DNA of 64,000 nucleotides. Source: Bacteroidia bacterium (GTDB taxonomy: Bacteria > Bacteroidota > Bacteroidia > SpSt-205). The stretch spans positions 275,570 to 339,569 of the forward strand of contig BPGV01000001.1 of the NCBI GenBank assembly GCA_026003215.1. The letters are read 5' to 3'. Below, one piece after another: positions 13,829-14,325 of the stretch. Positions within the stretch are counted from its first letter, which is position 1; every line of letters starts with the position of its first letter. The translations under genes were made by a program, and so were the position numbers. The notes beneath the pieces were generated by a model. That model made no database searches and was not told the origin of the DNA. It was given only the letters and a program-made list of their open reading frames with translations.

Positions 13829-13901
13829 GGGCCTGTAGCTCAGCGGTTAGAGCAGCGGACTCATAATCCGTTGGTCGGGGGTTCAAATCCCTCCGGGCCC
13901 A
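13829..13901 (+). tRNA. tRNA with CAU anticodon (elongator Met or Ile2)
   Basis: A full cloverleaf of 73 bases. The acceptor GGGCCTG pairs with CGGGCCC, followed by discriminator A. The D-arm contains AGCGGTTAGA. The anticodon stem GCGGA/TCCGT closes the loop CTCATAA, giving CAU. The T-arm has TTCAAAT. The mature 3' CCA is not encoded. An elongator methionine tRNA and an isoleucine-2 tRNA with lysidine at C34 cannot be told apart by eye. It is followed after one base by the TTG start of an OsmC-like gene. Confidence 0.95.
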
Positions 13902-13902
13902 C

Positions 13903-14325
13903 TTGCAAGCAAGCCTCCACTGGCGAGGGGAAGGCCTCCACTTCGTAGCCTATCTGGGAAGCGGTCATACCTTAGCCTATGACTCGCCCATAGAAGTGGG
14001 CGGAAGCGATAAGGCCGCCCGCCCCATGGAGGGCCTCCTAAGCGCGATGTTGGCGTGCTTTTCCGCGGATGTGGTAAGCATCCTCCGAAAAAAACGTAAG
14101 GCTATTCAAACCTACGCCCTCACCGCAGAAGCCCAACGCCGCACAGACTTCCCCCAAGTCTTTACAAGCGTGCACATAAACCTCACTATAGTCAGCCCGG
14201 ATGCGGAGATGGCAGATGTGCTGCGTAGCATAGAACTCTCTCGCACAAAGTATTGTAGTGCCATGGCGATGTTTGAAGCGGCGGGCTGTACCATAGAGAT
14301 TATACCCGAGTTAAAACGCCCCTGA
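13903..14325 (+). CDS. OsmC-family protein
   Basis: A 140-residue OsmC/YhfA-like protein; members are thiol peroxidases or uncharacterised relatives. It has the usual start with a beta-hairpin (LHWRGEGLHFVAYL then SGHTLAYDSP), the helix GGSDKAARPMEGLLSAMLACFSADVV carrying the first active-site cysteine position, and KYCSAMAMFEAAG with the second. TTG 13903 is the first possible start, since the frame is closed upstream by a TAA inside the tRNA anticodon loop (13864-13866). Translation therefore begins two bases after the tRNA discriminator. The mRNA 5' end is most likely made by tRNA 3' processing. Its stop is 2 bases from the convergent serine dehydratase stop. Confidence 0.8.
   Translation: MQASLHWRGEGLHFVAYLGSGHTLAYDSPIEVGGSDKAARPMEGLLSAMLACFSADVVSILRKKRKAIQTYALTAEAQRRTDFPQVFTSVHINLTIVSPDAEMADVLRSIELSRTKYCSAMAMFEAAGCTIEIIPELKRP

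Follow-up and report, generated by a model that had tools for sequence, protein, structure and literature searches.

Introduction

Bacterial operons can place a tRNA and a protein gene on a common transcript, as in the tRNA-tufB operon of E. coli, where the two are separated by a normal leader that includes a ribosome site. In mitochondria, tRNAs abut coding sequences and their excision frees leaderless or near-leaderless mRNAs. This mitochondrial tRNA punctuation is a subject of PMC11996679 and of work cited in PMC4633059. Leaderless mRNAs have been documented in Actinobacteria, Deinococcus-Thermus and archaea (PMC3160421, PMC4633059, PMC3848588), whereas in Bacteroidia they have been reported as rare, with 3.7% in B. 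thetaiotaomicron (PMC7366714) and 5.5% in F. psychrophilum (PMC9723704). No precedent for bacterial leaderless mRNAs made by tRNA processing was found in the largely open-access literature searched.

Here we describe a genome from a little-studied Bacteroidia group in which tRNA genes run directly into protein genes, starting from a tRNA(CAU)-osmC pair in a window of 64,000 nucleotides (the whole stretch of DNA covered by the initial annotation). As in mitochondria, tRNAs abut coding sequences without room for a leader or promoter, repeatedly across the genome. Unlike mitochondrial punctuation, the arrangement lies on a bacterial chromosome, has its own promoter before each tRNA and involves about a quarter of the tRNAs, and cleavage is a prediction here. 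The distance from tRNA to coding sequence is 1–9 nt, in contrast to the tRNA-tufB type. The start codons would lie at or near the mRNA 5′ end and lack a Shine-Dalgarno sequence, like those of the leaderless mRNAs named above; however, the 5′ ends of the latter come from transcription initiation, whereas a subset of those considered here would come from tRNA processing. With the OsmC/YhfA family (PF02566, NF008009) the window's protein shares the domain and a full-length alignment, but it scores below the NF008009 equivalog cut-off.

One base separates tRNA-Ile2(CAU) from osmC

The tRNA(CAU), of the elongator tRNA-Ile2 type, occupies positions 13829..13901 of the plus strand (Rfam RF00005, 74.6 bits) and ends with discriminator A13901; ARAGORN called it at 13829-13902 with anticodon CAT. 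Its Ile2 identity was assigned from the anticodon arm and by elimination, since the window's genome has three different CAU tRNAs: it combines a CAU anticodon with an elongator structure, and it is distinct from the initiator and elongator Met tRNAs. A single C at 13902 (+), which matches C74 of CCA, separates the discriminator from the TTG start of an OsmC-family protein of 140 aa (13903..14325, +). The reading frame is stopped upstream by a TAA in the anticodon loop, 39 nt 5′ of the TTG, with no start codon between; this in-frame stop rules out OsmC translation from an upstream start through the tRNA. The start region is predicted to be single-stranded directly past the acceptor stem of the tRNA.

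The initial annotation had read the discriminator, the first usable start and the closing TAA at these same positions, and the sequence bears it out. Its view that the junction leaves no room for a promoter also holds, but it had missed the promoter-like element of the tRNA itself, TACTTTTG (13814..13821, +), a Bacteroidota-type -7 element (TAnnTTTG) located 7 nt before the tRNA. Likewise, its statement that CCA is not encoded is correct for the full triplet, whereas the first C (13902) is encoded and the remainder is not.

The TTG start of OsmC is well supported, because the protein matches Pfam OsmC (PF02566) with 51.7 bits (cut-off 27.5) and aligns with NF008009 over its full length, residue 1 falling on profile position 1. 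With 74 bits against an equivalog cut-off of 138 bits for NF008009, the assignment is at the level of the OsmC/YhfA family only. The N-termini from 11 genomes align with the start in the same column, in which the first codon is shown as M regardless of the actual codon.

Conservation of the tRNA-osmC pair

The same tRNA-gene junction, which the initial annotation had proposed to look for in related genomes, was found throughout the family. osmC is present in 11 of the 12 family genomes, the one without it being 83% complete, and tRNA(CAU) lies directly 5′ of osmC in all 11. The relatives' OsmC proteins are 62–72% identical to that of the window. The gap between discriminator and osmC is one base, a C, in eight genomes, three bases in one and 14 in one, and a longer insertion is found in one; the start codons at the eight 1-base junctions are ATG, GTG or TTG. 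Moreover, TAnnTTTG or a one-base variant precedes tRNA(CAU) by 6–10 nt in eight other family genomes. In the genome with the insertion (L009, G001 C71), the inserted sequence parts the tRNA from osmC and brings TACCTTTG to 4 nt before the ATG. This is a natural swap, in which a predicted leaderless promoter stands in place of the tRNA before osmC.

Neighbouring genes of the window were also looked for around osmC in the relatives, within flanks of up to 4 kb, and none of those tested turned up. Since the tRNA-osmC pair is conserved while these other genes are absent, it travels as a unit. No tRNA stands directly upstream of osmC in the distant OsmC relatives (L012-L030, L040-L052), and the pairing is thus specific to the family as far as sampled.

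tRNA-to-protein junctions across the genome

The osmC junction is not singular: it is one of 12 in the window's genome, in which 12 of 44 tRNAs are followed by a protein start after 1–7 nt. The gap is 1 nt at Val-Dxr, Ile2-OsmC, Leu(UAG)-trigger factor and Thr(CGU)-cytochrome-like lipoprotein, 2 nt at Trp-SecE, His-DUF2480 and Arg(UCG)-L25, 3 nt at Phe-PhoD-like and Leu(UAA)-67 aa protein, 4 nt at Gln-Prs, 5 nt at Ser(UGA)-FBPase and 7 nt at Asp-LigA; for tRNA-Leu(UAA), the discriminator position comes from automatic placement, and the gap carries an uncertainty of one or two bases. The coupled starts of Dxr, L25 and FBPase, whose family profiles align from residue 1 or close to it, are more certain than those of the secreted proteins (PhoD-like, lipoprotein).

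Eleven of the 12 junctions are shared by every one of the three congeners surveyed (G002, G004, G010), while the DUF2480 junction was found in two, and a thirteenth, Thr(GGU)-200 aa protein, is confined to the congeners. Together the four genomes hold 13 gene families with a tRNA abutting the coding sequence (gaps 1–9 nt) and 50 junctions, in 19 of which the gap is 1 nt and in none 0 nt; since the genomes are related, these are not independent events. Several tRNA-gene pairs are kept together across species despite changed upstream neighbours, and the coupled genes are diverse in function. Similar junctions, Trp-SecE among them, were found in a sister genus and in another family of the order. 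In two other Bacteroidia genomes, none of 38 tRNAs has a protein start within 10 nt (12/44 versus 0/38, Fisher p = 0.0003, with a control set that is small at 38 tRNAs from two genomes). Chance adjacency of tRNA(CAU) and OsmC is ruled out by the conservation in the family and by the control genomes.

The second tRNA and second coupled pair of the window is tRNA-Asp(GUC) (53385..53458, +; Rfam and ARAGORN), which is preceded at 8 nt by the promoter element TATCTTTG (53369..53376, +) and followed by the NAD-dependent DNA ligase gene ligA, whose ATG lies 7 nt past the discriminator (53466..55517, +). In the four genomes this gap measures 7, 8, 9 and 1 nt. The LigA frame is open through tRNA-Asp to a GTG at 53379, just past the promoter element, in the window's genome; it is closed in two relatives, which speaks against LigA translation from an upstream start through the tRNA.

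Promoter elements and predicted leaderless genes

In 724 kb of the window's genome (G000; the window, L083-L102 and L252-L264), 161 of 526 long ORFs have TAnnTTTG 2–10 nt ahead of the start, usually at 3–8 nt and with a mode of 4 nt. Permuted motifs gave 4–20, and in two control genomes TAnnTTTG precedes 3% and 6% of starts. Furthermore, Shine-Dalgarno-like 4-mers precede 19 of 478 first ATGs genome-wide. Taken together, these counts bear the signature expected of pervasive leaderless transcription, and the genome appears to be a strongly leaderless one among Bacteroidia. At the coupled pairs, the element stands before the tRNA or, where several tRNAs form a short array, before the first of them.

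tRNA 3′ ends and processing enzymes

The base after the discriminator is C in 40/41, 40/45, 42/43 and 43/46 tRNAs of four family genomes and in 38/38 tRNAs of two control genomes. The tRNA genes of G000, G002, G004, G010, G047 and G052, a set that includes two unrelated Bacteroidia genomes, nearly all encode C74, mostly without the rest of CCA. This pattern hints that either 3′ cleavage or recognition by RNase P depends on C74.

The window's genome encodes RNase P RNA, a protein of the CCA-adding/polyA-polymerase family and a protein, at G000 C1:1701644-1702537, that aligns with the RNase Z profile TIGR02651 over positions 2–301 of 302. The score of the latter, 284 bits, is just below the curated equivalog cut-off of 292.95 bits, and we therefore call the gene RNase Z-like. 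In G006 (C36), this gene and the tRNA-osmC pair lie less than 1 kb apart (8686-9576 and 10381-10797), and in the other genomes they sit on separate contigs or at a large distance from each other.

Proposed origin of the osmC mRNA 5′ end

A promoter element stands before the tRNA and none was seen in the junction, and co-transcription of tRNA(CAU) and osmC on one primary transcript is therefore implied. By implication, TACTTTTG would serve the tRNA and, by read-through, osmC; such read-through is the only source of an osmC transcript visible in the sequence. From sequence comparison, namely the observed junctions, their conservation, the promoter positions and the enzyme genes, we infer a bacterial form of tRNA punctuation, which we consider likely. 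In this mechanism, tRNA-Ile2(CAU) and osmC would belong to a single transcription unit under the control of the TAnnTTTG element directly before the tRNA, RNA polymerase initiating a few nt 5′ of the tRNA and reading through into osmC. RNase P would form the tRNA 5′ end, and a 3′-processing endonuclease, most likely RNase Z, would cut after A73 or C74 and free the tRNA for CCA completion. The remaining osmC mRNA would start at UUG or one base before (C-UUG if cut after A73) and would be translated by the ribosomes of a lineage in which leaderless mRNAs seem to be widespread. The same arrangement may serve about a dozen of the genome's genes: since their protein starts lie 1–9 bases past tRNA ends, excision of the tRNA probably makes leaderless messages. 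The proposal of the initial annotation, a leaderless mRNA created by tRNA processing, is thus the best available interpretation, favoured by the 1-nt gap in 8/11 genomes, the promoter before the tRNA instead of in the junction, the RNase Z-like gene and the pervasive leaderless genes, and the finding is larger than first noted. Several observations fit it less well. The RNase Z-like protein scores slightly below its cut-off (284 versus 293 bits), some junctions (Prs, LigA) would leave a short leader of 4–9 nt instead of none, and the comparison draws on few control tRNAs and on related genomes that are not independent samples. Moreover, UUG is rare at promoter-driven leaderless genes of the window's genome (6/151, against 3/12 at tRNA-coupled genes; p = 0.02) yet frequent at 1-nt junctions.

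The position of the cut within this same co-transcript could vary. RNase Z of the canonical type cleaves 3′ of the discriminator, and C74 may be retained for RNase P recognition, which speaks against a cut after the encoded C74; on the other hand, such a cut would let the mRNA begin exactly with the start codon, leave only CA to the CCA enzyme and agree with the lack of any gap shorter than 1 nt. In Propionibacterium acnes, the cleavage sites found within encoded CCA triplets all lay between the two Cs (PMC3848588). Since C74 is nearly universal in the class and this precedent exists, a cut after C74 deserves weight, although we consider it less likely than not. The tRNA-mRNA precursor might instead be translated uncut, with the tRNA 3′ end made later by exonucleases from decaying mRNA. 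The predicted single-stranded start region right after the acceptor stem would allow this, but a tRNA folded a single base ahead of the start codon would probably occupy the mRNA channel of the ribosome, many genes of the genome look leaderless and an RNase Z-like gene is encoded, which together make direct translation of the precursor improbable. Even less credible is a promoter inside the tRNA that would make the osmC mRNA independently. A consensus alone is a poor guide to the absence of such an element; nevertheless, the best placement of TAnnTTTG at any leaderless spacing before the coupled starts matches only 2–3 of the six fixed bases.

The junctions could also reflect compaction only: a leaderless gene does without a 5′ UTR, so it can move right up to a tRNA and use the tRNA's promoter, with no regulatory meaning. 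The diversity of the coupled genes and the exchange of a tRNA for a leaderless promoter in G001 favour such an origin, whereas the persistence of the pairs across species, several with changed upstream neighbours, argues against it, and we regard the matter as evenly balanced. This reading concerns origin and is compatible with the punctuation mechanism proposed above. A bolder version of that mechanism is that the lineage uses tRNA excision as a standing maker of mRNA 5′ ends, with a cut after C74 giving ends at the start codon and about a dozen housekeeping genes tied to tRNA transcription and maturation. We consider this conceivable but somewhat doubtful.

Implications for leaderless translation and annotation

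If tRNA punctuation operates as proposed, a bacterium would have arrived independently at the mitochondrial style of mRNA release, and a Bacteroidia lineage would have become strongly leaderless, unlike its better-studied relatives. The junctions would then offer a natural system in which to study the translation of leaderless mRNAs with a 5′ monophosphate, the possible use of UUG as a leaderless start and a possible control of housekeeping proteins by tRNA maturation. For annotation, tRNA-adjacent start codons may seem wrong to gene callers, yet they appear right here.

A phylum-wide pattern search with a T-arm plus ATG returned mostly non-tRNA matches. In a neighbouring family, a tRNA-His (L268, G012 C227:654-726) is followed 4 nt on by a GTG-started frame, a candidate histidyl-tRNA synthetase gene by the likeness of its first residues.
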